DNA from: Liolophura sinensis
Lineage: Eukaryota > Mollusca > Polyplacophora > Chitonida > Chitonidae
NCBI RefSeq assembly: GCF_032854445.1
Contig: NC_088305.1
Span: 29,972,628 to 30,036,627, forward strand
Length of the DNA stretch: 64,000 bases
Direction of reading: 5' to 3'
A model generated the notes under the pieces. It was not told the DNA's origin. It saw only the letters and a program-made list of their open reading frames with translations, and did not search any database. Position numbers and translations under genes: made by a program. This document shows, one piece after another, positions 1,717-61,700 of the stretch (position 1 is the first letter of the stretch; each line of letters begins with the position of its first letter).

Positions 1717-4700
1717 AAGGACGAAGATACACGCAGTATCGGCAGTAACTCTTCCGGGGACACAACTTGTCTCGGCAGCGACATTCTCTCATTGACGGCG
1801 CATATCTCTCAGACAGGTAAGTGAAATGGCCGGAAAAAGTGATCTGTGCTCTAAAACTGAGGACTGAGGGTCTGCTTGTAAGTGATTTGTCACGTATCAC
1901 CTGTGATGAAACAAACAACCTGATGATGATGTCAGCCTTGGTGTTAAATCTTGTACTGAGTGCTGCGATGTTACAAATCAGTGAAACCATCAGCGATACA
2001 GATGACGGTAACAACGAAAAAGCTCAAACTTTAGTGCTTTATACTGCTTCAGTGTTGAAGTCAAAAGATAAACACCATGACATCATTGTCTAACGGGGAA
2101 TTATAATTTATTTATTATAATTTATAAATTATAAATTATTATAATTGTGACTCTGCAGTATTATAAGGCCCCAGCGAGTCATGTGTCCACAATTCTGTGC
2201 CAGTGCTGGCTGGTCCTGCCAAATCGGAGCATTTGGTGCGCGTCGCCCGCTCAAGTTTTACATCACTTCCGGTAAATCAGGCGATCTCGCCATGGCAAAG
2301 TGAGAAGCGGCGTGCACCAGTTAGCTAGTTGGTCGCAAATCAAGCAGGCCCACAAGGTTATGTAGTCCTGTATAGCAAGTTGTCTTAGGAACCTTTTTAT
2401 TACAAGGAGACACAATGACCATACATTTAGTCCAGGACTAACTTGCCCATTTTTCTTGATTCTGAGCGTTTATCACCAAAACTAGTGCTAAATGCAGTTC
2501 TTTGCTTCTAAAAATACACTTTTCGGGGCAAAATTTGGGGTCATTTACAGTATTTGTTTATTTGCAATATAGGTATTTTAAAGGATCCGGACAAGGGAGG
2601 TAAATCTTATGCTGTCTACGCAATCACCGTGAACAGGAAGTCAGTAGATGGTGAAGAAGATGTGTGGGATGTGTACAGGCGCTATAGTGACTTCCATGAT
2701 CTTCACATGTGTATAACAGAAAAGGTGAGGTGTGTTTGTGTAGAGACACTTCAGCTATGATGTTCACATGTGTATAACAGAAAAGGTGAGGCATGTTTGT
2801 ACAGAAACTTTAGCCACGATGTTCACATGTGTATCACAGAAAAGGTGAGGTGTGTTTGTGTAGAGACACTTCAGCCACGATGTTCACATGTGTATAACAG
2901 AAAAGATGAGGTGTGTTTGTGTAGAGACACTTCAGCCACGATGTTCACATGTGTATAACAGAAAAGGTGTGGTGTGTTTGTGTAGAGACACTTCAGCCAC
3001 GATGTTCACATGTGTATCACAGAAAAGGTGAGGTGTGTTTGTGTAGAGACACTTCAGCCACGATGTTCACATGTGTATCACAGAAAAGGTGAGGTGTGTT
3101 TGTGTAGAGACATTTCAGCCATGATGTTCACATGTGTATAACAGAAAAGGTGAGGTGTGTTTGTGTAGAGACATTTCAGCCATGATGTTCACATGTGTAT
3201 CACAGAAAAGGTGAGGTGTGTTTGTGTAGAGACATTTCAGCCATGATGTTCACATGTGTATAACAGAAAAGGTGAGGTGTGTTTGTGTAGAGACATTTCA
3301 GCCATGATGTTCACATGTGTATCACAGAAAAGGTGAGGTGTGTTTGTGTAGAGACACTTCAGCCACGATGTTCACATGTGTATCACAGAAAAGGTGAGGT
3401 GTGTTTGTGTAGAGACACTTCAGCTATGATGTTCACATGTGTATAACAGAAAAGGTGAGGTGTGTTTGTGTAGAGACACTTCAGCCACGATGTTCACATG
3501 TGTATAACAGAAAAGGTGAGGTGTGTTTGTGTAGAGACACTTCAGCCACGATGTTCACATGTGTATCACAGAAAAGGTGAGGTGTGTTTGTGTAGAGACA
3601 CTTCAGCCACAATGTTCACATGTGTATAACAGAAAAGGTGAGGTGTGTTTGTGTAGAGACACTTCAGTCACGATGTTCACATGTGTATCACAGAAAAGGT
3701 GAGGTGTGTTTATGTAGAGACACTTCAGCCACAATGTTCACATGTGTATCACAGAAAAGTTGAGGTGTGTTTGTGTGCTGAGGCATGTTTCATAAGTCCA
3801 ACATTTTTATCTTCTTTAGAAGACAAAATTTTTAAATCTGGCTTATAAAATATGGCTAAAATTCTCACAGCAGAGCTTCCAGTGTCAAGATTGTATTGAT
3901 TTATGGTTTGTATTTAATGGTATAATTTGAATTACAAATGAGACCTAGATAGTTTAGTAACATTTATGTGATTTTCATGTATTACATAGCAGACAACATA
4001 ATAGATAAAATGTGTAAAATGCTAAAAAATAAGTAAATTTCTTCTCTTGTCATTCAGTTTGATGCTATACCAGGTCTGATCCTGCCAGGGAAGACAGCTT
4101 TTAAAAACATGAACACTGAGTTCTTAGAGAAAAGGAGGAAGGCTTTGGATGTATACTTGAAGGTTGGTGTCATGTCACCAGTAGGGGCATCTGTGATATC
4201 AAATAAAGGAGGTGGGATGAAAATCTCATGCCCACATTTGTCAGGACTGTTAAGATTCTGTCAAGGCGCGGTATTGTATTCTTTCGATTTATATTTATAG
4301 CACAAAAGTAATCTCCAACTTGAGTAGGGTTATTAAATTTGATACCACTGAATAACTCATTGGAGATCCTCTATGTAAGAAGCACCAGTTGTCATCTGCA
4401 AATTACAACTATGTGCTGGTGTTTCTTCTTTACCTGATCAAGAATATGAATTTTTCAACAACAACAACTGTTTTTGTCTGTAGCTCAGACACCCAGCTAT
4501 ACTCATGGTGGAAATGTTGGGTTTATTGGCAAGAAATATTGCAGATTTAACTAGCATACTTTTGCACTAATATGATTTTTCTTTGCCATAAACAGTTGAT
4601 ACATGTAGTTAAACTGTAATGTATTTTTATTATTAGGCCTATTTCTTTTTTGAATGTATAATGTAGTTTATACAGCTTTACATGTATAGACCTGCATCAA

Positions 4701-7700
4701 GAAGTTAAGTCCTGTTTGAGTTCCGTGAAAATCTTGTGAGAGCCTAAGGATTTCGTGAAATACCTGGTAAATTTTTGTGTCGGAATATATACAGGTACGA
4801 GCCAGAATTAATTTTAGTAAAGTGGAACAACAGTTGCCCCACCATGATTTGTCAGTGCCCCACCATGATTTGTCAGTGCCCCACCATGGTTTGTCAGTGC
4901 TCCACCAGGGTTTGTCAGTGTCCAGCATATTTATGTGAAGGACTTTTGATTTCTGCGTAGCTAAAGAATTATTGTTCTGTCTGAATCTAGTTTTCACTGA
5001 ATACCCTAATTGCATGTAAAGGAGTAACTTTCAGTGCAATTTATGCACATTTTTTAAATTTCATTTGGAAGACAAATCTATATTGGTTGGGTTGGACAAT
5101 GTCAGGGCTTCACAGAAAGTATAGTTTTATGAGTCTACAGAGAATAATGCCTTCAGAATAAGCATGAATAAAGACCTTTGCAAACATGGTAGGCTGTGGC
5201 TTTACATAAGGAGTTTTTTACATTTACCATAGTTGTGATTCACTGTTTGTGTGGTGACAATACATGGGAGATAACTCTTCTGTGGTTGTTGGCATAGGCT
5301 TCTGTTCATTGAAAACCACTTTGTCTCTCACCAATAAAATGTGCATTTCTGTACCGGTACATCAAATGTGGGAAAGTTAACTTGCCATTCCTTTGAATTC
5401 CTCAGACTGTAAACTGACTGCTATCTTAAAATTTAAGACATTAAAAATTGCATTTTAAAAGTTAAAATATTAAAAATTCTGGAGCATGGTGTTACAAAAC
5501 AATGTAATAGATAAATGAATAACTAATAGATTGAGGGGTACAGTGTAAAAGACAAACAGATACAGAAGTAAACAAAAGGTGATGTCCATGATTGGGTCAG
5601 TTTTGTATCTTTTCTTTTTGTATTGCAGACACTGATGAACGCAGATGTTCTGCAGAATTACCTAGGCCTATTTGAGCTCATGGTCTTATTCCTGTCACCT
5701 AAAATCTGGGAAAAACATAAAACAGAGCTTGCAAGAAAGGTATAACTCTAACATGTGTGGTAGAATTCATAGCCTGGTTAATTACTGACTTCATTAAAAA
5801 TAGTACTTTGTAGCTGCCTGTCATGGTGCTTACAGCAAGGAAACAGCTAGGCATGGCACTTCAGTAGCGGCAGAACTTTGGCGGCGTTGACTTGAAGTAT
5901 TATAGGTACACAAACCTACCAGTAATGACTCCTCGTCATATGACTGTAAAATTGTGAAGTACAACATGAAACTCAAGCATTGATGCATACATGTAAATAC
6001 TTCTTACAGACTTAAGCCGTGGGAAGATGCCAACATGAAAATCAATCAATACTCTCTGATAGTTTCATGTAATTTTGATCACTGTAATGGAAATCAGTAG
6101 TTTGTACAAAGACCACTTTCTTTAAAGTTTACCTCAGTCTTTGTCCCATGAAGATTTGAAATTTAAATAATTATGAAATGGTATTTTATTTCTTCCCAGA
6201 TGGACACCATACTTAACCCCCTGAGGAGCTCGGTGAAGCACATGGGATCAGCAGTCAAACACATGCCTGACACCGTAGCTGACGGTGTGGGCAGCGTGTT
6301 CAAGATGAAAAATGTGAGCTGAAAATGATTACTTAAGATTGACACGAGTTCAACACTTTTCATCCCTTGGCCAATTTTGGCCCAGGGGTATTGTGGTATT
6401 TGGGGGCACTTTTTTTTTTGTCTGTTCTGCCATTCGTCCATTTTGTTGGTAGCATGATATCTCTTAAATGGTTTATCCTAAGATCACCAAGCTGACACCA
6501 CACTGATTTACACATTGTCATGAGGGACTGAATAAGGCAAGATTTTGAGGCTGTGACTGTATGTAATTTTTTCACCGAGAACGTGGCTGAAAGTTCACAT
6601 TTAGTATCACATGATTCCTGTATTACATACATTACAGGCTATTAGTAATAAATACCGTGATTTAACTCCAAACAATTAAAAAAGCACTCTTTACAGAACA
6701 TCTTAATATGAAAGAACGTGTCTCTAATTTAAAATTTTAATCATAATTCTTTCTTAAGTTCTACTGACATCAACAACAGAATGGCATGTGTAAAAGAGCT
6801 TATCAACTCCAGTTTAAGATGAGAAAGGGTGTTTGATTGAATATAATGATGCTCACTCGACAACGTGCTAAAGCTATCTTTAGTTTTAAAAAGCTCCGTT
6901 GTTGTCATGGAACATGCATGTGAGAAAGTCTTAGCTTTTGAAACATTTCTTCCTTAAATATTGTGCTAAAAATTTTTGAAGTCATGAAGCTGGATTGACT
7001 GATTTCAGGGCTCTTCCCAGCTAGGGAAAATTGTGGAGCGAGGGAAGGTTGGGGCTGCTCTGGATACAGAGGTGAGTTGACCTTGACTTCAGGAATGATA
7101 ACCATTCTCAGGTCATAGGTCTATTTTATACATTGTTGCTACAGTCATGGAAAAACCCGAATAGTCCTGAATTAATGTTTCAGCCATCAGTTATAATAAA
7201 AGGTCATGAATTTTTTAAAATTTCAGAGAAAGTCAAACACAAAAAAGCATCACCATATTTACATCTTTGTTGTATAGCAATGATCAGGACATGGCATGAA
7301 CTGTTGTCAGTGCATTTGTAATTCTTGACTGTTAATCGTGGTGTGATGGCTAATTCATCGTTCATATTTTGTCAGTTTGCTGGGTACATGCCGTGACTTA
7401 TCAGGTTTGGTCACGAAAAGTAACTGGCCAACGGTCACTGGTTTAACATGAGGAGCTTCCTGTTTCCTCCACCCGTGAAATCGTATTAGTGAAAAGTTCT
7501 TCAGTATGGCATTAAATGATGATCAAATGATTACTTTGTTTTTTTTTTTACTGTCCTCTTAGGCTGCTGACAACATTCCAATGAGGATCATGTTGCTATT
7601 GATGGATGAGGTGTTTGACCTCAGGAGTAAGAACCAATGGCTAAGGAGACGCATCGTGGCCATCCTGCGCAACCTCATCAAGGCCACCTTTGGGGACACC

Positions 7701-10022: not shown

Positions 10023-10170
10023 AAATTGAACAGTAAAAAATGAAGTGCTATCGAAGAAAGTGAAATATTGACTGTACAAATTATACAAGGGACTGTATAT
10101 TTGGTAGGTGGTTGTCTAAATGCTGTAAATGATTTGTAGTATGTAGTAATTTAGTGTGTTCATCATGTAT

Positions 10171-10176
10171 ATTAAA
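10171..10176 (+). promoter_or_regulatory. Candidate SNX13 polyadenylation signal (ATTAAA)
   Basis: An ATTAAA hexamer lies about 150 bp after the SNX13 stop codon. No transcript evidence. Confidence 0.4.
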
Positions 10177-10459
10177 CGGCACAAGGAGTGAAATTTAAAG
10201 GCTTCCATATGGAGCACTTACCGTTATACAAGACGTGAGTTTCGAACTCCTTTATCACCTAAGTTAAAAAAACAGAGTTACCAAACTGTTCAATGTGACT
10301 TGTCAGAAATGTGAGGCAATTTTAATTACATATACTAAAATATGGACGTCTATGGATTTATTTGGGGTAAACGAATGTAGGAGAAAATTTAGGAGCTGAT
10401 TGTTTGTGAACTTAATCAGTTCCGGGTGGAAATTGTGCCTTTAGGACATGGTGAGACAG

Positions 10460-10529
10460 GGTGATCAGTAAAATGATGTCATCAAAAGTTGCTCAACATT
10501 TTAGACAAGTCACAGGATACTGTAGGACA
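10460..10529 (+). mobile_element. Right-end fragment of the MITE at 404-615
   Basis: Reads gtgatcagta...gttgctcaacatttt...gacaagtcac...atactgtaggac, in the same order as bases 560-616. No matching left end was found nearby. Confidence 0.5.
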
Positions 10530-11984
10530 ACAAAACAACAAAAGAGTTCTCCCCTAGTGACATGACTTGACAAGTAATATTGTCACTGGAATGTATTAAA
10601 AATGCAATTAGAAAGGTTACTGGTAACTCTTAAATCATCTTGCCTTTCAATCAATACGACCCTTATAGGTGTGGGTTCAAACCTGTCCTTGGACAAGGAA
10701 ATTCTCAGAGTTATTAACACTAACCATGTAGCCATTGATGCAGCCTAGCATTCATAATGAAGACAGGCTGTCTTCTACCTGTTTGATTTGTATATCTGTA
10801 TGCAGCACTGAGAGTGCCTCTCAGCAAGTATATGGGATAAAATATAGGAGGTTTTTCAGAGAAATGTAGGAGAAATATGGGAATTTTTGGCTGACAATAT
10901 AGGTGCTTGTGGGAAACTCGGGACATTCTGAGATCTATGATCAATGACATTATATATTTGATTGTTGTTAAATTACAAACTCCAGAATTGTTCAATTATA
11001 CAATGGTGGACTGGTCAGTTTTATGGGTGAATGAAACTGGTAAACTACAGAGCTTTGATATACTTATGCATTATTTGACATACAGATATGCACACCATTA
11101 TTGGTGGAAGACAAATAGCTTTCAACAACTGTGTAATTCAGTTCTACCGTACATTATCAACATCACCACGGTGACAATGATGACCAGCATGTACTTACCC
11201 TGAAATGAGAACAGCTCACATACAGTTCACATCTTTTTATTGCTTTGTGATCTATCAAAGGAATGAGCTGGTGCATTGCCAAAGTGACCCCCCAAGGACT
11301 TCAGATGCGGTCCCTAAGACGATAATGTAAGGTATCATGAAACATGCAGTACATGTAGATAAGAATACCCGATTTGATAGTGCACAAGAACTTGCCTGTA
11401 TAAGAAGTATAAATGCTAAACTTCACCTCAATACATACATAGATTTTTAGATGCCAACAATATCATCACATGTATATTGAGTAATACACCAAGCAACCAG
11501 GGTCTGTCAGTTAAAAGCAGTTGTCTTTCAATAGATAGCTAGGAAACATGGGATGTGGGCTTAAACCCAGCCATTGATAGGGAGTTTATAAAATATCCTC
11601 ATTCCCACAGGCTGTGTGGCCTCTGTGACAATAAGTGGATGACAGTACTGGTGTGGTCATTTGCGGAAGTTGAGGAGCACGTGCCTTCCACCAAAATGGA
11701 GTGCATATCCATAGATCACATGTGTAAGCTTGTCAGTACCTTGTCAAAGGTTGGTGGTTTACCACCAGCACTTCAGTTTCCTCCACCACCAACTTATGCT
11801 GCTTAGTTTGGCTTCATATAGAATGTTGTAGGTGTCATATTTGGTGTGCAGTGATTGGATTACTGGTACATCTAGTTTGGATGGAGGAATGTAACAATCT
11901 GAAGAGAATACAGCTGGAAATATTTGTGCATGGTTAGAGTAATATGTGCTCAATATACATGTAAGAAATTGACATGTAGTGTTG

Positions 11985-12504: not shown

Positions 12505-12766
12505 GGGCCTCCATGGCTCAGTTGGTTAGCATGCTAGTGCAGCATAATGACCTAGAAGTCTCTCACCAATGCGGTAGCTGTGAATTTATGTCCAGCTCAT
12601 ACTGGCTTCCTCTCAGGCGAAAAGTGGGAAGGTCTGCAAGCAACTTGCGGATGGTCGTGGATTTCCCCCAGGCTCTGCCCGGTTTCCTCCCACCATGATG
12701 CAGGCTTGTGTAAGTGAAATGTTCTTGAGCACAGCTTAAAACACCAATCAAATAAATAAATAAATT
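12505..12766 (+). mobile_element. SINE family A, full length
   Basis: tRNA-like head (ggcctccatggctcagttgg, with gttagcatgctagtgcag), box B-like region near gtgaatttatgtccagctc, core (gtgggaaggtctgc, ggatggtcgtgg, ctctgcccggtttcc), and tail agtgaaat-ttcttgagc...caatcaaataaataaata. It is the reference copy for family A in this window. Confidence 0.85.
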
Positions 12767-13989
12767 TGCCTACTTACAAACATTGTAGCAGTGCAGGTAG
12801 AGATAAACATAAGTGTCAAATAAAAAACTGTCTTCGTAGGTGCTGTTAGGTGGCAATACTCTGTTCAGGTGGACAGTGGGATGTGGTTCATGTAATGTAA
12901 AGTCCCGCTTCTCCATGTGATATTAATTCAAAATGATAGGACTGACACGTGAACACAAGTCCATCCAATAACCTGCCAGTCTCACTCTGAAGGGGGATTT
13001 CGCCTAACATGACTGACACACCTGTACAGCGAATACTTGTACTACTGACATTAGTAACATTACTGGCATTTAGTCATTTCCATTTGCAGTTTGACTTCAG
13101 CCGAAGGTTTATAAATGGTGTCAAATTGCCTTTGTCCTGTCATAATTCAAGAGGTTTACTGAACCAATTGCATTATCCAGGTTAATTGTTGTAAGATTTA
13201 TTAAAGGTATGTATTATATTGTATCAGGATTCTGATAATGCAGACTGCTTCAGTTGCAAAAAATAAAATGAGTTCAATCTAGGTTATTTTTGAGTTATTT
13301 TGATTTTACAGAATTGCTGACAGTTGATCTTGAGACTTTTATTCTTCGACAAAGTCACATATTTTATTTACTACCTTTTTACCCATTTAGACTCGTAACA
13401 ATTATTTTTGTCTGATTTGAAATATTTCTGGTCCGTAGGATTATTCCAGACATGTAAAAAGTAAAAAGGCTGATGTCCCAAGTGTTCCACTCTGCCATTA
13501 GGTTGGCAGTGCCAATGTTTCTGGTAAGGTGAAGCGAATCTTGAACAGAATACAAACATACGGTTCAGTTTATTGTTTAATGCCATATTTTTCAGTTAAT
13601 TTCATTGTGGTCATTTTTTTCTGGGTGGATAAATGCTGCCATAGTTTTACAGTTAGTGTAAATGCCCTAAAGTTTTACCCAGTTCTCTTGATCTTACTAA
13701 GATGTCAACGCATTTGTTTGGAAGGTAGGGTAATGTCTTACTGGAACAATGTTAGCGTCAGCAGCACAAGCACCAAATTTAGTTTACGTGCCTCTAAAAT
13801 GCACTTTTTTTGATGAAATTTTAGGTAGTTTCTGAACTACCATGTAATCAAGAGTCTCGTTTGTAGTTAGAGGAAATCAGAGAGCCAGGGGTAATACTCC
13901 ATCTTATGCCAGGTACCACTCGCCAGGTTTTAAGATTCTCTCGCTTTCACAGCTTTCTGGGCGTTGCTGACAGTAGACGGTCTACTTGT

Positions 13990-14177: not shown

Positions 14178-14365
14178 ACTGATAAACCAGCGAGAGCTGG
14201 ATTTGAACTCACAGAGACCGCATTGGCGCGGATAAACCACACTGACGCTGATAAGCCAGCGAGAGCTGGATTTGAAATCACAGAGATCGCATTGATGCTG
14301 ATAAACCAGCGAGAACTCACAGAGACCGCATTGACGCTGATAAATCCAGAGAGCTGGATTTGAAC
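14178..14365 (-). repeat. Tandemly amplified SINE fragment, about 4 copies
   Basis: Units of gataaaccagcgagagctgg followed by atttgaactcacagagaccg, about 48-55 bp, are reverse complements of the SINE core that carries the box B-like gagttcaaatccagctc. A SINE piece appears to have seeded a small tandem array. Confidence 0.7.
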
Positions 14366-14839
14366 ACGACCACATGGGTCAAGGGCTTTTTGTTAGCAGG
14401 AAGCCAGCACGGACCCTGTTAAGTACACGTACATGTAAACTCACTTAACATCACTGTCACTGTGCAGGAAGACAGCAAATCTACTGGGACTAAGTATCAT
14501 AACTGGATTATCTCGTCTGAATATTTACTTTAATTCTTCAACCTTTCTGCATATTCTGTGTTGACTGGTAAAATTTATCTTTTTGTGAAGTCCTGAAACT
14601 GGCCAAGCCAACCAATGCAGTTTTGTCTCCAAAATCAATTCATAAATATGCATAAATTACACTGAAATTTGGTCTTTCACATGGTTGAGGTGAAAAGGTT
14701 GAGGAATTGGGGTACCTTTCACAAGATGAGACCATATGGCTCCACTGAACTACCCAGATTGAACAATATATTGTTTGGCCATGAAGTATGTCACGTCAGT
14801 TTGTGTTCATACAACCAATACTATGATGATTAAATTACA

Positions 14840-14845
14840 TTTATT
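14840..14845 (-). promoter_or_regulatory. Candidate RPP25-like polyadenylation signal (AATAAA)
   Basis: An AATAAA on the minus strand, about 375 bp downstream of the RPP25-like stop codon. It is the first canonical hexamer I noticed downstream. No transcript evidence. Confidence 0.4.
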
Positions 14846-15136
14846 CCGTTGGTTAGATAACTAAAACATTCCACATGTCTTCACAGTAACATTTGTCAAT
14901 CTCTGACCAGCTCATTTCGGATTTCTCTTTCCACGTTTTAGTAGTGGTTTTGTTATCACTCAAAGCACTGTCATTCCCATAACCACCATTGCCATGGAAA
15001 CACAATGCTATGGGTGCTTACGATTATGCGGAAAAACTAGTGTTGCCAAGTTATGAGGACCAATCACATAACTAATGTCACACATCTGGCTAGGCTGAGA
15101 TAGCGACGCTGCAGTTTCCGTATAATTGTAAGTGTC

Positions 15137-15240
15137 CTATAATTTTATAACTACCATCACCATGGAAACACAGTCAATGCTATCTTTTGTCACCACCATT
15201 GCCATAGAATAGTCAGTGCTATCTTTTGTCACTACTACTG
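15137..15240 (-). repeat. 42-bp duplication spanning the RPP25-like stop codon
   Basis: The minus-strand text gtgacaaaagatagca followed by ttgac/ctgac occurs twice about 42 bp apart, once over the coding end DKR-stop (15219) and once in the 3' UTR. A further, weaker relative lies near 14970-15010 (cattcccataaccaccattg). Confidence 0.7.
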
Positions 15241-18200
15241 TCTGTATCTTTCTTTGTCTTTCCGCTGAACGATTGCTGTTTGCCCTTCTCGCTTGTGGAG
15301 AACTTGGCCTGTTTGGTGGAGTCCCTGCCTTTAGGTCCCTTCCTCTGTCGTGGGTTTCTATGGTTACCGCTTTGCTTGGCACGCCTCTTCTCTCCACGCT
15401 CGCCACTTTCCCAGAACGATTCTCTAGAACCTGGTTTTTGGTATCTGCAAATATTAAGATCAAATATTAGGACCTCCAATATAAAATCAAAAACGCACAG
15501 TGGATTTCTGTCGTTGTTTTACAAGTTTTCTGTTTTCCCTGTCAACATGAACAACACAAATTCATCTGCCCATATTTGCCTTTTCCTTGAAACTACAGAT
15601 ACTGTACTAAAACTAACAAACTTTATCTATAATACAAATAAACGGGTCCATGGAATCGGTTATGTACCACATCTATCATACAGTGAGCCCAGTTTGCAAC
15701 TATAAAATTTAATAAAATCCAACAAAAAGTTGTGACTTACTTCTTTGGAAAATTACAGTTATGCTTTACTTGAAATATGCTTTGTGGTTTGTGAGATAGT
15801 AAAAATTACCATACAATGATTCACTTATTAGTTATAAAATGATTAAATAATGCTTGTGCAATACTCTCTATGTGCAAGTAGTGCATAGAGAGTTCACCAC
15901 TTGTGTTAACGATGTGTAAATAATAAACAAACCAACGATCAAGCGTACCCTTCATTAGTCAGCTGCAGGGGAACTTTTGACAGCACCACAGTTAACACAG
16001 GGATATCACGATTCACCTTTAACCTAAAAACACACACAGGTTTTTATTTATCTGCTGAAATTTAGCTGAGGTTTTACATTGTACTAACAAACATTTCACT
16101 GGAAGATAACCACCAAATTTACTGACCAACGAGACGGTGTTGTCTAATCAGGATTTGGCTGCGGCCTTTAGTGAGGAGGTTTGTCAGACAGCAGGGTGGT
16201 GGTTCACTCTGGGTTGTCTGGTTTCCTCCACGCAGAGTTCCCTCCACCCATAAACCTGACTGCCCTCATCTATCGTTTCACAGGTACTTTGACCAGGGCC
16301 CAGTTTCACAAAGCGGCGTACATCACGGTTTTATTGTACACTTGCTGTACGATAGTTTGTACATCAATACTACCGTGCCATTGTCCTTTTTTTATTCATA
16401 AGGAATTTACATGTAGACAATATCATAAAATATATGTAAAGCAATCACAGTTCAAACTTTCGGTAGGATGTCTTCAGTCATAGGATACCAAGAAACAAAG
16501 TCACAAAATATTGCTGAGACTGGATTTGAACTCTCAGTATCCAGTAAGAAAAGTCAGTGTATGTAATTGCCATTACCTGTCTAAACCTTCCAGTTTGGGC
16601 TCCCAGTACTCCTCTATTCTACAATAAACAAAAGGAAGTAGTGGATGAAATATCAAACAGTGAAGATAAGAATGTTTAACCGGTACTGTGATCACTAAAA
16701 AGTATGTTTACTTGTATGCATGTGTGGAGTTTTACATCGGTTATTTCAGTCATGTGACAATGACCATTAGTTTTAACACACATCCCCAAACTTGTCCATA
16801 TCCAGTCATTCCTTTCACAACATCTCTTTGTGCACTCTTCAAAACTGGAGGTAAAATAAGGAAACACAAATGACTGAACAACGGGGTAAATCTTCTGTAA
16901 AAAATAAGTTTAGGGCAAATATGGAACAGAAAAATTTTGAGCAGTGTGCAGTTGCCAACCTTTAAAGATATCTCAAAGAAAGAGGAATTATGTCAACTAA
17001 TTAAAAACGAAAACAGTTTGTTAAATTGGCCGAGATTCCTGCAAAAGTAGACTGACCGATCAACATTTTTTATCACATAATTATGTCTCTTTGACAGAAA
17101 ACATCAAATACAGGTTTTCACCTTGTTCTCGCCACGATATGGCTGAAATATTGCCGATGTGGCGTTAAGCCATGATCATTCATTCATTCATTCATTCAAA
17201 TACAGGTTCAACATCACTTTCTTTCCTTTTTATTTTTCTGCAGTTAGTACTCTGTGACAATTCTCATGTTATTTTACTACTCTAATACTTCTTTAAGACT
17301 TTAGGAGAAGATGAGATAACTTGTCAGAATAGAAAAAATAACACCACACTCAAAGTTTCAAGTCAAATGGATTTTCAATATTTTTCTCTCTCCTAGAATC
17401 CATATTTATAATCTATAAACTCCACTCTACAATTACTTACCTTCTATATCTTGCATAATTGAACTGGTGCAATCCCTAATGAAAATGAAATAAAAAAAAT
17501 GTTATCACATCAAATAGTGTATTGTTTTTTAATTAGGACACAAAATATCAAACATCCCCTGGTTTATGTGAAATGGACAACTACATGTATTTTGTCATTT
17601 ATTTGATTGGTGTTTTAAGCCGTACTCAAGAAAATTCCACTTATACAACAGTGACCAGCAATACGGTGGGACAACACCGGGGAAACCCCTCACCAACTCA
17701 CATAATACATCATTCACCTGTAGTCTGTACCTGTACGATTTCCACAAAGGTAACCGTCTTACTGATGGTTTCCCGCAGCCTTCCCACATCATACATCACT
17801 CACCTGTACTTTACATTTCATGATTTCCACACAGGTAACCGTCTTTCCGATGGCATTCCTACAACCTTCCCACATCATACATCAATCACCTGTACTTTAC
17901 GCTTCAAGATTTCCACACAGATTCTTCTCCTGCAATACGTCGGAAGGCCTGCCCGGTTTCCTTCCACCATTATGCTGGCCGGCATTGTATAAGTGAAATA
18001 TTCTTGAGTGCGGCATAAAACACTTATCAAATAAATTTCCACACAGGTAACCGTCTTATTGATGGCTTTCCCGATGCCTTCCCACATCATACATCACTCA
18101 CCTGTACTTTGCGTTTCATCACTTTCACACAGGTTACCGTCTTATTGATGGCATTCCTGCTACCTTCCCACATCATACATCACTCACCTGTACTCCACGT

Positions 18201-21180
18201 TTCATGATTTCCACACAGGTAACCGTCTTACTGATGGCATTCCCGATGCCTTCCCACCTCATGCATCCCTCACCTGTACTTTGCGTTTCATCACTTCCAC
18301 ACAGGTTACCGTCTTATTGATGGCATTCCTGCTACCTTTCCACATCATACATCACTCACCTGTACTCCACGTTTCATGATTTCCACACAGGTAACCGTCT
18401 TACTGATGGCATTCCCGCCACCTTCCCACATCATACATCACTCACCTGCACTTTACGTTTCATGATTTCTGCACAGGTAACCGTCTTACTGATGGCATTC
18501 CCACTGCCTTCCCACGTTATGCAGGGCATTTCCCACATCATACATCACTCACCTGTGCTTTACGTTTCATGATTTATGCACAGGTAACTGTCTTACTCAT
18601 GGCATTCCCGCTACCTTCCCACATCATACATCACTCACCTGTACTTTACGTTTCATGATTTCTGCACAGGTAACCGTCTTACTGATGGCATTCCCACTGC
18701 CTTCCCACGTTATGCAGGGCACATCTGGTTCCTGAAACACAAATATTTGTCTCATACCTGCTTTGTTGTCAAACGAGCACAAAATTCCCAATAACCACAT
18801 TACCACATATTAACCACATTACCACATTAACAAGATTACCACATTAACCACATTACCACACAAAAAATCTGTGACATCTTCTACTGACGCTCCTTGCTAT
18901 ATAAATGGACCATCATAGAAGATATGGTCTATTGTGCTTGTGAAGGAATCTGTGCTGATGGAAACCAGTGAAGTCTATGGGTTTGACACAGACCTTTACC
19001 AGTGAAGGGTTTGACACACAACCTCACTGCTGAAGGGTTTGACACACAACCTCACTGATGAAAGGTTTGACACACAACCTCACTGCTGAAGGGTTTGACA
19101 CACAACCTCACTGGTGAAGGGTCTGACACACAACCTCACTGCTGAAGAGTTTGACACACAAACTCAATGGTGAAGGGGTTGACACCCTGCTTCACTGGTG
19201 AAAGGTTTGACATACAACCTCAATGCTGAAGGGTTTGATGCACAACCTCACTGATGAAGGGTTTGACACACAACCTCACTGCTGAAGGGTTTGACACACA
19301 ACCTCACTGATGAAGGGTTTGACACACAACCTCACTGATGAAGGGGTTGACACAGAACCTCACTGATGAAGGGTTTGAAACACAGCCTCAATGCTGAAGG
19401 GTTTGACACACAACCTCACTGATGAAGGGTTTGACACACAACCTCACTGATGAAGGGTTTGACACACAGCCTCAATACTGAAGGGTTTGACACACAGTCT
19501 CACTGGTGAAGGGGTTGACACACAGCCTCACTGATGAAGGGTTTGAAACACAGCCTCAATGCTGAAGGGTTTGACACACAACCTCACTGATGAAGGGTTT
19601 GACACACAACCTCACTGATGAAGGGTTTGACACACAACCTCACTGATGAAGGGTTTGACACAGCCTCAATACTGAAGGGTTTGACACACAGTCTCACTGG
19701 TGAAGGGGTTGACACACAGCCTCACTGATGAAGGGTTTGACACACAACCTCACTGGTGAAGGGTTTTTCACACAGCCTCAATGCTGAAGTTTTTGACACA
19801 CAGCCTCACTGGTGAAGGGGTTGACACACACCCTCGCTTGTGAAGGGTTTGACACACAACCTTAATGGTGAAGGGTTTGACACACAGCCTCACTGGTGAA
19901 GGGTATGACACACAGCCTCACTGGTGAAGGGTTTGACACACACTCTCACTGGTGAAGGGTTTGACACACAACCTCAATGCTGAAGGGTTTGACACACAAC
20001 CTCACTGATGAAGGGGTTGACACACAACCTCAATGGTGAAGGGGTTGACACACAACCTCACTGATGAAGGGTTTGACACACAGCCTCACTGGTGAAGGGT
20101 TTGACACACAACCTCACTGGTGAAGGGTTTGACACACAGCCTCACTGGTGAAAGGTTTGACATGAACCCATGCTGCCAAAATACCTGGGCAACTGAAATA
20201 TCATGGCAAAGACGCCAGACATCATACCCCACCCAGTCAAATTATACTGACACCAGGCATACCAACAAGTCAGGTTTCTTTGCTGTAACTTCTCAGTGCT
20301 GAGTGCAAAGCGAAGCAGCAGCAAGTACCATTTTTAGTCATTGGCAAAACCTGACCTGGGTTTCATCCCGAGGTCTTCCAACTCTGAGGTGGACACTCTA
20401 ACCATTAGGCCACCAAAATGGCGATCAGTAGTTATGAGTCTGACACACAACCTCAATAGTTAAGGGTTTGACAAACAACCCATGTCTTATTTTTTTTTCT
20501 GAGAATGACTATTAATTTGCACATACTTAGGCATATCTATTTTCACAGGAACAATGACAGATAAACGATATTCAAGAATATTTCACTTGCACAACATCAG
20601 CCTGTATTATGGTGAGATGGAACCATCTGTAAGTTGCAGGGTGACTAACATATTAATATCCCATGAAACTCTAGAGATAATATATTTACTTATATAGAGG
20701 TTTATCATCATATTGTGAATAATCCTGATAATGGAACCTAGGTCCTATGCAATTTCAAGTGAACACATGGACTAGAATAAACTACATGCATGTAGAACTT
20801 ATATGGAAACAGATTTGGATGACGGTCGCTGTGAGTTCAAGTCCAGGTCATGCTGGCTTCCTCTTCGGCCGTACATGAAAAGGCCTTACAGCAACCTGCT
20901 AATGGTCATGGGTTTCCCCCGGGCTCTGCCCGGTTTCCTCCCACCATAATGCTGGTTGCCGTCGTATAAGTGAAATATTCTTGAGTCCGGCGTAAAACAC
21001 CAATCAGATAAATTAGATTTGGACAATTCATCATACCTTAATTTTTTTCATGGCGAATCCCATGAGGTTGCGTATTTTGCTGCCATAGTTAACCTTCATG
21101 GCTACTGTGTTGTTGTCAAGTGCCAAGGGGAGGCAATCCTCTGAGACTTTTCTCGTCTCTCCTTTCTCATAGTTTTCCAT
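15219..21180 (-). CDS. RPP25: RNase P/MRP subunit p25-like protein (Alba domain), 6 coding exons
   Basis: Exons, 5' to 3' on the minus strand: 21180-21037, 18731-18639, 17475-17441, 16618-16577, 16023-15949, 15444-15219. All have AG/GT borders and the phases join to 204 codons plus TAG. The product starts MENYEKGETRKVSED. The Alba-type nucleic-acid-binding fold runs from MKVNYGSKIRNL (exon 1), through GSGNAISKTVTCAEIMKRKV (exon 2) and GLHQFNYARYR / IEEYWEPKLEGL (exons 3-4), to DIPVLTVVLSKVPLQL (exon 5). The last exon is a basic, low-complexity K/R/S-rich tail ending SSSDKR. These blocks and the length match vertebrate RPP25/RPP25L (recognised from memory). Known role: pairs with RPP20/POP7 and binds the P3 region of the RNase P and RNase MRP RNAs in tRNA and rRNA maturation. 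Convergent with SNX13, divergent from TRRAP. Introns 1 and 2 carry large tandem arrays. Confidence 0.92.
16110..16280 (+). mobile_element. SINE family C-like fragment
   Basis: Contains tttcctccacgcagagttcc and ctccacccataaacctgact, as in family C. Diverged. In RPP25-like intron 4. Confidence 0.35.
17131..17198 (+). mobile_element. Element tail ending in (attc)n
   Basis: gccacgatatggctgaaata, then ttgccgatgtggcgttaagc, then catgatcattcattcattc. A shorter relative is at 58292-58350. This tail type is familiar to me from lophotrochozoan genomes. Confidence 0.6.
17597..17690 (-). mobile_element. SINE family A 3' fragment
   Basis: Minus-strand tail of family A (atttgattggtgttttaagc, cgtactcaagaaaattccac, ttatacaaca). 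It sits at the left edge of the exon-derived array in RPP25-like intron 2. Confidence 0.7.
17700..18638 (-). repeat. ~86-bp tandem array seeded from RPP25-like exon 2 and its 5' splice site
   Basis: Downstream of the true exon 2 donor (18638/18639 boundary) are nine further copies of the exon's 3' part. Their donor boundaries are near 17716, 17801, 17887, 18101, 18186, 18271, 18358, 18443 and 18551. Each copy encodes a variant of GKAINKTVTCVEIMKRKVQ followed by a donor; six keep a perfect CAG|GTGAGT. The two copies nearest the exon also carry bases of the exon's 5' half (cacgttatgcagggca), which shows that the exon gave rise to the array. No copy has a proper acceptor. Confidence 0.93.
17934..18036 (+). 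mobile_element. SINE family A 3' fragment inserted in the exon-derived array
   Basis: cggaaggcctgcccggtttc, then attatgctggcc...gtataagtgaaatattcttg, then cttatcaaataaa. It interrupts one exon 2-derived unit: ttccacacag lies on both sides. Confidence 0.8.
18793..18860 (+). repeat. Short accacatta tandem repeat
   Basis: Irregular 8-12 bp units of accacatta and attaaccac, just upstream (gene sense) of RPP25-like exon 2. Confidence 0.7.
18985..20162 (+). repeat. 28-bp minisatellite, about 41 copies, in RPP25-like intron 1
   Basis: Units of ctcactgatgaagggtttga plus cacacaac, fixed 28-bp spacing, with substitutions and occasional indels. It ends at a SINE B copy. Confidence 0.95.
20163..20425 (-). 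mobile_element. SINE family B copy with tRNA-like head
   Basis: On the minus strand: ggcctaatggttagagtgtc, box B-like ggatgaaaccc, then ccagcataaattgactgggt-type core and the cagggcagcatggg motif. Best-preserved head of family B here. In RPP25-like intron 1. Confidence 0.75.
20820..21013 (+). mobile_element. SINE family A, 5'-truncated
   Basis: Begins at ggtcgctgtgagttcaagtc, keeps ctctgcccggtttcctccca and ends caccaatcagataaatta, 24 bp before the RPP25-like exon 1 donor. Confidence 0.8.
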
Positions 21181-21230
21181 TATCAGTCAGTTAACAAACG
21201 GGCAGCAACTGGTGGATTTCACATACTTTT
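21181..21230 (-). other. RPP25-like 5' UTR segment of the first coding exon, with spliced leader acceptor
   Basis: On the minus strand, ctaac...ccatttgcag| precedes 21230. This is a branch-point-like ctaac plus an acceptor about 50 bp before the ATG at 21180. It implies an upstream non-coding exon. In-frame TGA and TAA triplets just before the ATG support it as the start. Confidence 0.6.
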
Positions 21231-52700: not shown

Positions 52701-55700
52701 ACAACAGTTTGCGCAGTAATTCAGCTGTACATGGTTTAAATTTCATGTACCCTATGAGGGCATGGCCTGCAGCTCTGATTAGTGTATGTCAACATTTTAA
52801 CTGGCCTGATCAGCCAATGGCAATCGACAATCACGATGATGTGGGGATGATGTAGATACAGTCCTGTTAAAACTGCCCTGTTATATGTCTGTCACCAGTC
52901 ATCTGGTACCAGTCATCCAACCTGGAGAGTTTATCAGTAACTTGCCAAGGGCTGATAGTTTACTCCGGCACGCCTGTTTTTGTTATAAATATGTTTTACT
53001 AGTATAATATTTGTGGTTTTCAAACTTTTTTTGAGGAGTATTAAGTAGTCTTTTAGATTGAATCCACCAAGCATAGTACCCGTGCATGTTAAGCTAATAA
53101 AGTCACATCGTTGGGTTTACTGAATTAAAAGTAAACAATTACAATTAAAAAAAAAAACAAGTGATGTAGAATATGATGCTGTCACAGGTTGATCTGGGAC
53201 TAACCACAGTTTGATTGTTCTCTCGACAGGAGCCCTGGCCGCTTGTCATTATATCACTGACTTAGGTGAAAAGATCTTTGGCATGCTGTACAAGGCTTTA
53301 AACAGCACGACCAGTGAGCTACAGGAGGCCGCACATTCCTGCATGAAAAAGGTAAGCTACATGGTAACATTTTGTACTGTGACACGCAGCTCTGTAGGTC
53401 ACTTGGGCAGCGAGTTTATGTGTTGGTCAATCTGACAGTCATTCAGTTAAATTTTTGTCATCCAGCATGTATCTTGTGCCATTTTATCTTATCTTATTAT
53501 TTAGGCATTTGACATAACAACAGACCCGTCTAAAAGGTTACTTTAACATTTTGTGTGATATCACAGCTTTTGTGGGTTTGTGATTGTTTTTACACAAGTT
53601 ATGATGAGGCATCATCGTGGCTTAGTTAGGGCTGGGCTCTCCCAGAGGAAATAGCCTGTGGCCAATGACAGCGCCAGGTAAATCCAGTACGTATTGACAT
53701 CTCTGGGGCATGCGTTGACATCTCTGGGACTCGTGTTGACAGGGTGCTGGTCCACAAGTCCATGAGGCCTCAAACTAGAGGACTACAACGTCAAGGGTGT
53801 CATTTTGAGCTTTCATAATATACCTAATTGTGATTTTCAGTTTATCTCTGGGACTCGCGTTGACATGGTGCTGGTCCACAAGTCCATGAGGCCTCAAACT
53901 AGAGGACTATAACCTCAAGGGTGTCATTTTGAGCTTGCATAATATACCTAATTGTGATTTTCAGTTTATCTCTGGGACTCGCGTTGACATGGTGCTGGTC
54001 CACAAGTCCATGAGGCCTCAAACTAGAGGACTATAACCTCAAGGGTGTTACTTTGAGCTTGCATAATATACCTAATTGTGATTTTCAGTTTATCTCTGGG
54101 ACTCGCGTTGACATGGTGCTGGTCCATGAGTCCATGAGGCCTCTGTTGCTCAAACTGGGGGACTACAAGAGCCTTAACCTGAATGTGATTCAGAGGCTGT
54201 CTAGTCTGACTCAACTTTTCCCTAACACCTTCAACGAGAAACTGTGTGAACAACTTCTGGTAAGGGCTACTGTATTTCATGTAAAATTTGGCCTGTGAAA
54301 ATGCCCTTTCAGAAGCACCTTAAGGCCTCAATGTGATACTTTTTATGTCAAGACTTGGGTTTTCTCATAGTAAATTCCTCAAACGTGTTCAGTTCTTTAA
54401 GAAAATCAGCTAAAGGTGGAGAAAACATAAAAATGACATATAGTTCAGATGAAAGTCTGCGAAAAGTTATTCGTAAATGTGGTCTTCAATATTTTTTCCG
54501 ATTTTCTTTATGGAGAAAAAGACACATGAAAACAATTTTGTATGGTGGGTATTTGGGACCACCTTTAGGTATTTATAGTCTTTGTTTAATAATGTCAATA
54601 ATGAGGATGTAACACAGGTTTAATAAATATTTTTGCACTAGAATTTGTTCTTTTTGGCTAACAAATGTATTAAACCTCAATTTGGATCATATTTATATTT
54701 TTAATATGTTCATAAATATTATCATAATTTACGTTAAATGCTTATGTTTTGATATAAACAACAAATTTACATTCAAATAAATTTATTAGACAAGCATCAC
54801 ATCCGTATTTAGAACATTATTATACAACAATGATAAATACTAAAAGTAAAGGTCCCAAATAACCACCATACAAAAATATTTTCAAATACCCTTTTCTCTT
54901 GAAAAAAAAAAAAATCCAAAAAAATATTAAAGATCATATTTGCAAATAAGTTTTGACCCTCTTTCATCTGATATTGGCATTATTTTTTTTATGTTTTTTT
55001 CTCCTCTAATGTTTTCTTAAATACAAAGTTTTCAGTGATTCACTTGATAATAACTCCTTTATTTCGCTGTCTGTGCTATTAATTGAGAAGTCCTCATATT
55101 AAAGAACTCTGTTTTTTTCCATAACTGATGCAGATTGTTTGAATTATCCCTAGACTCACCTGAAGAAATGGATTGACACAGCTGTGGCCACACAGAAGAA
55201 TGGTCAGCAGAGAGTGAATGGACAAGTCCAGTCTACGGTATGATGGGTGGATTCTTCAGGTTGTTAATACCTTGAAGAGGCTCCTCATTGGCTTACTCAG
55301 ATACAGGAGTGTTCTCATTACAGCTCGTTGGCTCTCACCAATGAAGTTTGAGGGCTAAATTTCAGGTTTTACAGGTTCAGCTTTAGTTTTAAGCCACGCG
55401 ATAGTAGGTGATTTGCTTTGGTACTAGTTTCTACCATCTCCCCGGAAAGAAACCAATTTAAAAATTCTGATTCTATTTCAGTATGGTGTTAATTAACCCC
55501 AGTCAAATAAATAAAGAAAAAACTATAAATCATGGAAATTTTTTATTTTACCATATAAACAATAAGACGAAACTGTTGCATTTGCAATTCATTCCATTGT
55601 TTTTTCACAATCTTAGATGTAATTCTCTGTCCTAAAATTCGAAAATTCTGATTCTTCTGGATGGTGCAAAATCTGGGCGTTTTTTCCCCAAATATAAACA

Positions 55701-58700
55701 GTAAGATAATTACTATTGCCTTTTGTAATTGAGTTTTTTTTCACAGCGTTACATGTCATTCATCCCATGGCACCGTTGGACACTGTAAGTAAATTTGTGA
55801 ATGAGTGAAATCTGTGCTTTCTGTATAGGAGCTGAAGACATGTGCGGCCATCATCAATATTTTCCACCTGATCCCCGCAGCCAGCCAGAAGATCATCGAG
55901 CCTCTAACCGTACTGACCCTCAAAGGCGAGAAGATGCTGCTGATAGAGGTGAGAGCAGCTAAACTTTGTGGTCAGCTTTCATATCAGTCAGTTTGGTTAA
56001 AGCAGAATTCTGACCTCAGGCCATCAGCCAGTTAGGATTTGTGTAAAAGCTTGCTACATTTAGTGTGCCTACAGTTTTAAGTCAGTAGATTTTTCAGGTA
56101 TATGGTGAAGAACAGTCATCATATTATGATATAAGTGAAATATTTCTGTGTACAGGGTTTACCATCAAGTAGATAAATAAATGAAATTAGTCAGCCTGAA
56201 AAAGTAGCGTTTGTTTAACCTCAATCCTCTCTCTGGTCATGGTGAATGGTTGAGTGACTGAATAAATCATTAAATGAGTACTTTCTAGTAGGACAGTTTA
56301 CAGTTTCCATCCCCTTCGGTGTGGCACGTGGCATGGTACATGTATTCACCTATCTTTGTCATATTTCGGTCAGCCTTGGATTCTGTATATTCCACTGCTT
56401 TCATCATTAGTGATGGCTAGGTGACAGGTAGAGGTTAGTGGCACTTGTGTGGCCATTTCTGCAGTTCATAAACGTTTATTGAAGACCATTTGTAAGCCTC
56501 CATTAGGATGATGTGCATATCTGTACGTCCGTCGTGGGAAAGTTTGTTGGTATCTTGCTAAAGGTTGGTGGTTTTCTCCAGGCACTGTACTTCCAATCAC
56601 CCATGGACCAGAGTGCCATTGGGTAAGGAGGAAAATTGTGAGTATAGCAGTAATGACCAGATGAATAAATAAGTAAATATTTCTGCCTCTGCAAAACGTG
56701 TGCTGGTTGGGGTCATTGAAAATGGCACTTTCTTGCTGCCTCACTTAGCGCTTAGCACTGAGAGGCTAAAGCAATGAAACATTACTGGTTTGCTCAGTGT
56801 CAGTATAATGTGAGTGGATGGGGTGTCCTGTCACGGCATGATACTTCAGTGCAGCAGCACTCTGGCGGCATGGACTCACCCTGCCACAGGAAGACACGGT
56901 AAATGTACACACACCTAATGATTCCTTGTCGTCATATGCTGTTAAAGAATGTTAAGTGTGACATTTAAACCTAATCATAGAGATGCATACAAAACCTGTG
57001 TACCACGATATAAGTGACATAGTAGCAAGTCTGATTAAGTATTGCATTGTTGTGGTTACAGGCTGGTAGTCCGTTCCGTGAGCCCTTGCTGAAGTTCTTA
57101 CTGCGCTACCCAGAACAGACGGTGGAACTGTTTCTTAACGACACTTATATCAAGGATCAGCAGTCATCTCGCTATCTGGAGGTAAGAGGGAAAATGTTTG
57201 ATAATATTACCTTTTGCTGTTACTCGAAAGAAACATGTATCATGTGAAAGAATTGTTATACATCATTCACACAGAAATTGTTGTTAGGGTCACATGTACA
57301 TTGATTAATAAATAAATGACACATTCCACAGTTTTAGTTTGGTTATCCATTTTATGGTATGGTAAATGATCTAACATCTCCCTGATGACCTGATTTCAAT
57401 AGGTCTGTTGATCTCCTGTTGAAAGTCAGAAATGTTCTGTTTGTTTAGTTCCTGCTGCAGCACAAGGAAGGGAAGCCATTTCGTAGCGTCCTGCAGTCAA
57501 ACCCGGCCAGACTGGTGCACATGGCATTCGGTCAGCTCTTCATACAGGTAGGCAAGTCAGAATTGATTCCTCATCCTCACTTTTGTTTTCCATGCGAGTC
57601 AGATTGTCATTCCCAAAATGAAACCCCAAAATGTCAGCGAAACATGACATCTCTTTGTGAAACCAAGATTTTGTCTCTTAAATCAAATTAAAAATGTGCA
57701 TAAATTGCACTGAAATTTGTTATTTGGGGAATAAAAGGTTGAAGAATTAGAGTACGTGAACATGACATTTCCTGCACTACCCAGTAACCTGGCCACCATC
57801 AAAGTGAAAAATGTTAGAGTACGGCCTAAACACCAATGGGGACCTGTCAAACAAGACCGTGATGTCATCTAATTGACGTCAAATGTTCCCTTTCCCAGCT
57901 CATCATGATCACGTCCCATTAAAGACAGTACAATGCTACAATAGAAGCTGCTACATTGTAGCGCTGTAGAGGTTACACTACAATCCTTCTTATGGATTTA
58001 ATGAAAATGTGACCAGTGAAAAAAATTTGAACTGGAGAGGAACTGAGAGAGTGTGTCTAACTCATAGCTGTACCAACAGGCGTAAAGTCAGATCCTGGGA
58101 AGAGCCCATTGTTTATAATCTAGCAAAGACCTAGAGCCAGTCTTTTGTGATGGTCTCAGTACTATCTATTTAGTATATTCTCTGACCATTGCATTTACAG
58201 AAATATGGGAAATCTGCTTGGCTTGCATTTTGTCTGGAGCATTAAACACAATCATTTTATTTTTATTTTTGACACATTTTTATTTTTTAAGACATCAATA
58301 TGGCTTAAATATTGCCAGTGTGGCGCTAAACCCCAGTCATTCTTTCATTTCACCAATCAATCTGTTTCAGGGTCAAGCAGTTTTACCGGCCAGTCCCACG
58401 GGAAGCACCAAGGCGGAAATTCAGTACCTCTCTATCCGATTGGTCAGCCTACTGGTGGGATTGGAACCGGATTGGTTGCCTCAAAATCCACAGCTAGTAA
58501 GCATACGCAACTTCACCTATATATTTGTTATACTAATACATGCCCTAGTTTGAGGTACTTTTTGTGTATCCCATGTCACCACTTTAGTCGTTACAGTCTC
58601 TGTCTTCTCTTTGGTACATTCGATAACTCTGCTGTTACATTTTTAAGGGTCTTACATTACTTAAAGTGTCATTAACATGATGATGAGTGTTGATTAATTT

Positions 58701-61700
58701 GAATGGTAGAATCTGGGTATTTCTCCACTGGCACAAAAAATTAGAAAATAGTCCATGTACATGCATACTTGTCAATGCTTTCTCAGTATACTCTGAGTGT
58801 TGTGTCATGTCTGGTGACCTTGGCATGGCATTTCAATGAAGCAGCGCTATCAATATGACAACCATTTTGATGCACTTCTGCTATGAGGAGACACTGTCAG
58901 GATATTGGCAAACAAAGAAGCGAGCAAACAAATAAAAGAATACATTGTATCTTCCTGTTTTGAAGTAACTAAATTTATGGCTATTCATTTCAGATAGTGC
59001 AGTTGCGAAAAATCTGGGTTTCAGACAGTTTTGTGGAGAAACACAAGAAAGTGGTAAGAGAAAACATTAGAAAGTGGTAAGAAAACCATGAGAAAGTGGT
59101 AAGAGAACCATTGGAAAATGGTAAGAGAAAACATTAGAAAGTGGTGAGAGTAAATACAAGAAAGTGGTAAGAGAAAACAATAGAAAGTGGTAAGAGGAAA
59201 CATTGGAAAGTGGTGAGAGTAAATACAAGAAAGTGGTAAGAGAAAACAATAGAAAATGGTAAGAGAAAACATTAGAAAGTGGTGAGAGTAAATACAAGAA
59301 AGTGGTAAGAGAAAACAATAGAAAATGGTAAGAGAAAACATTAGAAAGTGGTAAGAAAACCATGAAAAAGTGGTAAGAGAACCAAGAAATTGGTAAGAGA
59401 GGCATGAGTAATTTTGGCTCATAAACATAAGTTAGAACATGTAGTCAGACCCATAGTTAGCAGTTTATTGCTAGGGGCAGCCCATGCCTATCGGGAAGTC
59501 TGTCATGCCTCTGTGAAACCACAGTGCAGTGCATCCTGCTGTTAAAAAAACACTTTATTCAATTTGCTGACCTTTTCTGCAAAACAACACTGTAAATGGT
59601 TTCACTGGCTTGTATCATATTCACTGAACAATGCGCACAATTGCAGGACGAGTTTTTCCCTCTAAATATCAAAGAGCAACAATAAAACCGGAAACCTTTG
59701 TTAGCCTCATTATTCATACCCTGAAAGGAGGTTTCCGAGATTCTAACATTCAGCCAACCACACACCGTGGATCGATAAGCTCTCTTCATCAAGTTTGCAC
59801 AACAATTAAACTTAAAATGTTAGACCAATGCCAACAGCGTGCCCAGTTCGGGTCAGCTGGAGAGGAAGTGTCAGTCCACTCACGAAAGACTAGCCACACA
59901 CAACAAGTCTATTCGATCTTTATAAACCGGATGAATGCAACTGTCAAAGCAACAACAACGACAGCGTGTGATCTCATACTCATGAGTGAATCTGATAAGA
60001 TAAGAAAATCATTATACAAAGTTCTCCTCAAGAGGACCAGTCGAAACTATTCAACAAAATGAATTTTACATCTTTTTGTAACTTTAAAAAAAAATTTGAT
60101 TCTAATGGTATGAATTTTACAGATAACTTAAGTGATTGACTTAAGTGACGTCAGTCACAGAACCTTGTTTTGTCATAAATTCTGAACAAATAACATTCTT
60201 GTCCATGGTGCCATTTGTATTTGATTTAGTGGATTTCACAAGAAATAAAATAGATAAATTTATGTGTAGTATACTGAGAAACTAATGAAATTGGTAAAAT
60301 AAACTTTAGAAAGATAGGAATGTTTAAAGAGACATCAGAAAGTAGTAAAAGCAAACATCCATATCCAGGGAGAATAGAATTTTTTAGGTGCGCTGAACAA
60401 AACTTGGGTGTATATGAGGCCATAATTGCTCTTTGATGACTTGGTTTTCGTCTTTGGTTTTCAGGACAGTGTGGACTATGTACACTGGAAAGAACCTGCC
60501 TTGCTTGTGAAATGTCTCATGAACTACTTTCAGTGAGTTCCTGTCTTTTGTACTCAAACAATTTGTCAGATTTCAGGAAAAGTAATCAGTGCATTGTATT
60601 ATTCTTTATACCCTTGTACAGGTTGCCTCTGTGGCCTAGTGGTTAGCGTTCTAGCACAGCCCAATGACCAAAGAAACTCTCACCGATGCGGTGGCTGTGA
60701 GTTCAAGTCCAGCTCATGCAGACTTCCTCTCTGGTCATATATGGGAAGGTGGGAAGGTCTGTCAGTAATGGTCATTGGTCGTGGTTTTTTCCCCACCACA
60801 ATGCTGACCGCTGTCATATTAGTGAAATACATGTATTCTTAAGTACAGCGTAAAACACTAATCAAGTAAATAAATAGTTTATACCCATGTACGTGTACTG
60901 CTACACTACTTTGTCCCAACGTGATCCATGATTCTCGATTGCTATTGGCTGATTAGACGGGTTAGAAGGTTGACATACAGCTATTGGCTGATTAGACGGG
61001 TTAGAAGGTTGACATACAGCTATTGGCTGATTAGACGGGTTAGAATGTTGACATACAGCTATTGGCTGATTAGACGGGTTAGAATGTTGACATACAGCTA
61101 TTGGCTGATTAGACGGGTTAGAAGGTTGACATACAGCTATTGGCTGATTAGACGGGTTAGAAGGTTGACATACAGCTATTGGCTGATTAGACGGGTTAGA
61201 AGGTTGACATACAGCTATTGGCTGATTAGACGGGTTAGAATGTTGACATACAGCTATTGGCTGATTAGACGGGTTAGAATGTTGACATACATGTACTCCT
61301 GTCAGACCTTTAACCTGGGGCAAGCAGCTCTGTACAATAAGTTGCTCTATTTATTGGTTGGTCAGACGGTCAGACATTCTGACTTCTGGGTCCTGAGTGC
61401 AAAACAAGAAGTAACTCAATTCTGCCAATTTTTTTTTTTTTGCGGGACATCACAGCTAAATGTACATGTGTTGCAAATTTATGTTTGTTTTTTAACTCGT
61501 CCATTTTTGCAGAAATCACACCATGGAGATAGAGCTGTTGTTTGACATCCTGAGAGCCTTCACACATCGCTACATTCCTAATTTCCAGTTTGTCAAAGAT
61601 TTCCTGGATAATACAGTGGCAGCTGTAAGTAAAATGTGTCAACAACCACATGTAAAATGCACGCCACTAGACACATGGGCTAGACACATCAATCCTGGTC

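Follow-up and report, generated by a model that had tools for sequence, protein, structure and literature searches.

Four tandem arrays in a 64,000-nucleotide stretch of the genome of the chiton Liolophura sinensis (contig NC_088305.1, positions 29,972,628 to 30,036,627; hereafter the window) have repeat units that combine the end of an exon with the adjoining splice site. They lie in SNX13, in an RPP25-like gene and, twice, in TRRAP, three at donors and one at an acceptor. Similar arrays recur elsewhere in this genome, at loci for dynein heavy chains. We estimate at roughly two in three the probability that all of these are ordinary minisatellites which straddle splice junctions and are tolerated, with the end copy predicted to go on splicing. 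The decoy sites in the other copies look neutral, and no function is needed to explain the arrays.

All four window arrays, which had been described in a first-pass annotation of the sequence, were recovered by Tandem Repeats Finder (TRF), and the layout claimed there was confirmed, i.e., the real splice site is the end copy in every case. This position follows from geometry, since the rest of the exon adjoins one copy only. On the forward strand, the SNX13 exon at 2573-2724 (PX domain; the gene name is that of the earlier annotation) has its real donor after 2724, according to sequence reading and the gene finder, and this donor is the first copy of an array at 2694-3776 with a 61-bp unit (17.8 copies by TRF), 31 exon bases, and 17 decoys, 15 of them with GT. 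The RPP25-like gene encodes an Alba-type protein on the reverse strand. Its exon at 18639-18731 is followed by a real donor starting at 18638 (gene finder and reading), the first copy of an array at 17699-18721 with an 86-bp unit, 83 exon bases, and 9 decoys, all with GT. The TRF rows of this array, at 17699-17920 and 18035-18721, are separated by a piece that resembles a mobile element (about 17921-18036), and both parts are far more similar to their own exon edge than to control edges (P = 0.0005 each). The TRRAP arrays are on the forward strand. The acceptor array at 53689-54143 has a 124-bp unit, 55 exon bases, and 2 decoys, both with AG (the main TRF row, 53720-54143, has 3.4 copies, and an overlapping row sets the start at 53689); its last copy is the real acceptor before the exon at 54089-54259. 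The donor array at 59039-59400 has a 23-bp unit (16 copies by TRF), 15 exon bases, and 12 decoys, 12 of 12 with GT, and its first copy is the real donor after 59053, which ends the exon at 58994-59053.

Protein alignment agrees with these junctions. The SNX13 protein continues past its junction into PX domains, with SNX14 among the best matches, the joined RPP25-like protein aligns to human RPP25 with an E value of 3.2e-21, and the joined TRRAP protein spans its junctions in an alignment to human TRRAP with an E value of 8.7e-111 and a single unmatched residue at the 59053 junction. In comparison with human TRRAP, PX domains and human RPP25, no repeat-derived insert is present in the proteins joined at the four window junctions.

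Two further observations concern the surroundings of the RPP25-like array. Pieces resembling one repeat are found at 17921-18036, 17590-17700, 12640-12770 and 20900-21040 of the window, the first being the one that interrupts the array; the repeat is common in molluscs and putatively BIV160- or Pearl-like. In addition, TRF reports a 28-bp array of about 42 copies at 18979-20162, which occupies much of the RPP25-like intron.

The frequency of such arrays was compared with chance by calling arrays with TRF at a preset score threshold of 50 and by predicting junctions with a small purpose-written gene finder, sequence reading and protein alignment. The 63 exons of the window were defined manually on the basis of the gene finder. 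Under the preset rule the window contains 18 arrays, so that the earlier estimates of 14 arrays and 116 junctions were about right. Exon edges are hit by 3 of the 18, against 2.1 expected (P = 0.36), or by 4 of 17 against 1.9 (P = 0.10) when the split RPP25-like array is joined. Four such arrays in one window are thus only suggestive, as had been judged at the outset, and given that the window alone is indecisive, a sample from elsewhere was needed.

For the independent sample, 13 loci encoding dynein heavy chains were picked by protein domain from the same 609-Mb genome, and the counting rule was fixed beforehand. Fourteen loci were fetched, and locus D14 was excluded before counting since no dynein gene was found in it; a FAT-domain search gave two matches only and was not used for sampling. 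Exons were kept at a homology cover of 0.6 or a score of 18, and two exons internal to arrays were removed by hand (379 to 377). In the window and the 13 loci together, arrays called by the preset rule occupy 33,990 of the 324,000 bases examined, about a tenth, and the median intron measures 468 bp. Nineteen junction arrays are listed in total, with units of 23 to 212 bp and array lengths reaching about 2.9 kb. The genes concerned have 361 complete introns, i.e., 722 intron ends, and two of the arrays, D04a and D12a, are at outer exon ends outside those introns. D04d, which has only 6 exon bases, is not a preset hit and gives P = 0.22 in the homology test, still counts as one of the 19 listed arrays and as one of the 15 curated hits. 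D13b is a preset hit in a short, degenerate array with a TRF score of 67 that does match its own exon edge. Elsewhere in this genome, one locus carries eight consecutive molluscan haemocyanin units (8 of 8 matches on C8), which marks the host as a mollusc and not an amphioxus.

The null model is analytic, with repeat units placed wherever coding stays unbroken, rather than a shuffling of whole arrays. Because introns are short and units measure about 20 to 200 bp, about one array in seven would span a junction if placed at random. Under this geometric null, the dynein loci present 10 exon-edge arrays out of 33, against 5.1 expected (P = 0.018), and the pooled count is 13 of 51 against 7.25 (P = 0.018). 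Over 15 threshold sets, the P value ranges from below 0.0001 to 0.0225 for the pooled count, from 0.0005 to 0.0265 for the dynein loci alone, and from 0.029 to 0.36 for the window alone.

Base composition accounts for part of this excess. The guanine-plus-cytosine (GC) fraction is 0.432 in arrays off junctions, against 0.358 in array-free intron (33 arrays, P = 0.008), 0.497 in exons, and 0.426 in the 18 rows overlapping junction arrays. Because exons are GC-rich, the arrays' GC preference raises the number of junction hits. A GC-weighted null, devised after the geometric result was known and with the preference fitted on non-junction arrays, reduces the contrast at the preset thresholds to 13 of 51 against 9.6 (P = 0.14). 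Hence, of the earlier proposal that minisatellites favour splice junctions, the recurrence of the arrays and the excess over geometric expectation stand, but the preset count is not significant once GC is allowed for. At least half of the junction arrays can be put down to unit length, short introns and composition.

Several results nonetheless weigh against a reading in which placement is entirely ordinary. The GC calibration is based on 33 arrays only, and a bootstrap of 60 draws spreads the preset P value from 0.04 to 0.27. Over the same 15 threshold sets, the GC-weighted pooled P value ranges from 0.0025 to 0.16, with seen-to-expected ratios of 1.3 to 2.0, and that of the dynein loci alone from 0.010 to 0.17. 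When at least 12 exon bases are required, 13 arrays are seen against 6.6 expected (P = 0.005), the excess being stronger at stricter exon-overlap thresholds, and two hand corrections at the preset thresholds yield 15 of 50 against 9.4 (P = 0.03). Furthermore, the 33 arrays clear of junction arrays are nearer to exon edges than a uniform placement predicts (mean 0.37 against 0.5, Kolmogorov-Smirnov [KS] P = 0.035); including pieces of junction arrays, the test covers 38 arrays and gives a KS P of 0.034. The GC-weighted excess over the threshold sets, together with the hand corrections, suggests a modest exon-edge bias, and an excess of 1.3 to 2 fold probably remains after GC correction.

Such a bias would be expected if minisatellites arose or survived preferentially at exon edges, either through a mutational bias near junctions or through exons shielding adjoining arrays from deletion. 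The excess in most GC-weighted threshold sets, its P of 0.03 after hand corrections and the edge proximity of the remaining arrays all argue for this explanation, which can hold alongside neutral decoys. The rows that overlap junction arrays also exceed the others in length, with medians of 744 against 276 bp (P = 0.004) and units of 84.5 against 28 bp (P = 0.0004), although longer units at junctions are what geometry predicts. On the other side are the preset count under GC weighting (P = 0.14) and unit breakpoints that are indifferent to the junction. We regard a preference for exon edges as a tentative explanation, and that these edges are a true hot spot or refuge beyond the effects of unit length, intron length and GC appears to us possible but somewhat doubtful. 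Were it so, a few percent of the junctions in such genes would carry rows of full-strength decoys, and the spliceosome would have only position to go by in rejecting them.

The breakpoints of the units bear on how the arrays formed. In the 19 listed arrays, exon sequence makes up anything from 0.1 to nearly 1 of the unit, evenly spread (mean 0.47, KS P = 0.93), and both boundaries are duplicated, donors in 11 arrays and acceptors in 8. This even spread, with both boundary types, indicates that the breakpoints ignore where the splice site lies. The idea that splice sites prompt the duplication, one way in which the genome could have made minisatellites at junctions, is therefore not supported. 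A 53-bp array outside the preset rule starts at a donor of the dynein sample (L022, 4334-5334, equivalent to D11, 14334-15334); it repeats AG|GT with two exon bases only, and its copies offer donors.

Given that the junctions are predicted, array copies could have been mistaken for exon edges through errors of assembly or of gene modelling. The gene finder did make false exons in arrays, reading some units as rows of mini-exons with in-frame acceptor-like and donor-like sites (window 2694-3776, L007-L008 in D04, and L015-L016 in D08). However, of the 15 dynein junctions, 11 are crossed by a paralogue alignment, the remaining four being D04a, D08a, D08b and D12a; the D08a junction is spanned by an alignment to DNAH2, and D08b is matched on the exon side only. 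In addition, the unit matches its own exon edge over control edges in all 12 preset hits tested, with P at most 0.0055 (the thirteenth preset hit, D04a, is outside this test). An artefact is hence barely credible. The same comparison was applied to the 38 non-hit rows in search of hidden, degenerate exon-edge arrays, a candidate that was rejected: the four rows with P < 0.05 are the two pieces of the RPP25-like array and two that overlap the D12b array.

Decoys, defined as copies with a 70% match around the junction, were then compared with their real sites. In the window many are still strong, as had been pointed out: beyond the intact GT or AG dinucleotides given above, the intact decoys whose score matches or exceeds that of the real site number 14 in SNX13, 6 in the RPP25-like gene, 2 in the TRRAP acceptor array and 9 in the TRRAP donor array. 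Over the 19 arrays, GT or AG is kept in 219 of 245 decoys, and in 167 of these 219 the score equals or exceeds that of the real site. Their predicted use leads to a frameshift in 139 cases, to an in-frame stop in 80, and to an open extension in none. The stops previously placed within about 5 to 24 codons are close to those found here, with donor read-through ending after 11, 4 and 8 codons and the acceptor stop 25 codons upstream.

These counts are what might be expected had the arrays been selected, whether for reinforced exon recognition or for unproductive splicing that lowers expression. Yet neighbouring-base identity alone predicts 207.8 retained dinucleotides, and in the 14 arrays with at least four decoys retention of the splice dinucleotide, at 0.88, is no better than the 0.84 of other dinucleotides (Wilcoxon P = 0.22); in D13a, AG is lost in 4 of 7 decoys. 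The in-frame inserts of the 80 decoys are not open in either wrong frame, which shows that stops are what such sequence does anyway. Selection for or against the decoys, and stop codons as design, are consequently set aside, and neither the retention nor the stops support the function proposed for them earlier. Reverse transcription PCR of comparable amphioxus arrays also pointed to regular splicing (PMC3087553). Selected arrays thus seem very improbable.

The tolerated minisatellites that we favour could have come about in simple steps. A stretch lying by chance across a junction would first be duplicated in tandem in the ordinary way, and the array would then grow and be homogenised through unequal exchange or slippage. 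Since one copy stays on the exon when a donor or acceptor is duplicated in this manner, the mRNA would be normal provided the spliceosome uses that copy, and purifying selection would keep the exon-attached copy and ignore the rest, leaving the decoys to drift neutrally. The real site may be picked by exon definition, in which position would decide, given that the decoys are about as strong; it gives the shortest exon in every case. As the real donor is transcribed first and the real acceptor last, the choice must depend on more than the order of transcription. Nonsense-mediated decay might conceal splicing errors, because any intact decoy gives a frameshift or a stop, and a similar concealment has been argued for new introns in Drosophila (PMC2809761).

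Each array, in a conserved gene, sets nearly identical splice sites, in some cases tens of them, in natural competition with position as the main difference, so that rules of splice-site choice could be tested here with RNA sequencing. The arrays also illustrate that much of a striking layout can arise from geometry and base composition without function.

Boundary arrays have been linked to the gain of introns. In an intron-gain scenario the arrays would be intermediates, a decoy copy becoming a new exon and the repeats a new intron. A model of this kind was put forward for amphioxus globins (PMC3087553), tandem duplication across an intron-exon boundary is likewise the basis of intron gain in potato (AGGT model; PMC4974935), and the gene finder built in-frame mini-exons from array units. 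In potato, however, the new intron is spliced at the duplication, whereas at the four window junctions exon joins exon as in the homologues, and no gained intron is shown there. We hold it highly unlikely that the chiton arrays are such intermediates. Minisatellites also occur at exon-intron boundaries of human segmental-duplication genes, where they may activate cryptic sites (PMC2812944); those genes are recent paralogues with transcripts that support new or alternative introns, while the mollusc genes are conserved and are described here from genomic sequence.

Among the open papers listed for molluscs, we recognised no report of exon-boundary minisatellites, which is weak evidence of absence. 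A polymorphic 27-bp intron minisatellite is known in abalone (PMC6905558, whose available part does not mention a boundary), and simple repeats are described in a cone snail (PMC3862624).

The closest known system is that of the amphioxus mirages, i.e., minisatellite-like tandem duplications of exon-intron boundaries in Adh3, the globins BflGb6 and BflGb9, troponin C and PGBD5, in which AG/GT is kept in many copies, the repeat number differs between two haplotypes, and regular splicing is undisturbed (PMC3087553, PMC3902484). Regular splicing and length polymorphism are thus reported for the mirages, whereas the mollusc arrays come from one assembly. The mollusc arrays have more copies than the amphioxus globins (3 to 6) or PGBD5 (2 to 7), and they belong to a different phylum. 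Unit lengths are comparable, at 10-72 bp in Adh3 and 150-160 bp in the globins against the 23-212 bp found here. Both systems have units that cross the 5' or 3' boundary of an exon, a genuine copy next to that exon, and AG/GT in many of the copies. The Liolophura arrays therefore have the layout of mirages, with boundary-spanning units, a genuine exon-adjoining copy and both boundary types, and they extend mirages beyond amphioxus to another phylum, with their frequency and the share due to chance and composition counted in a sample.

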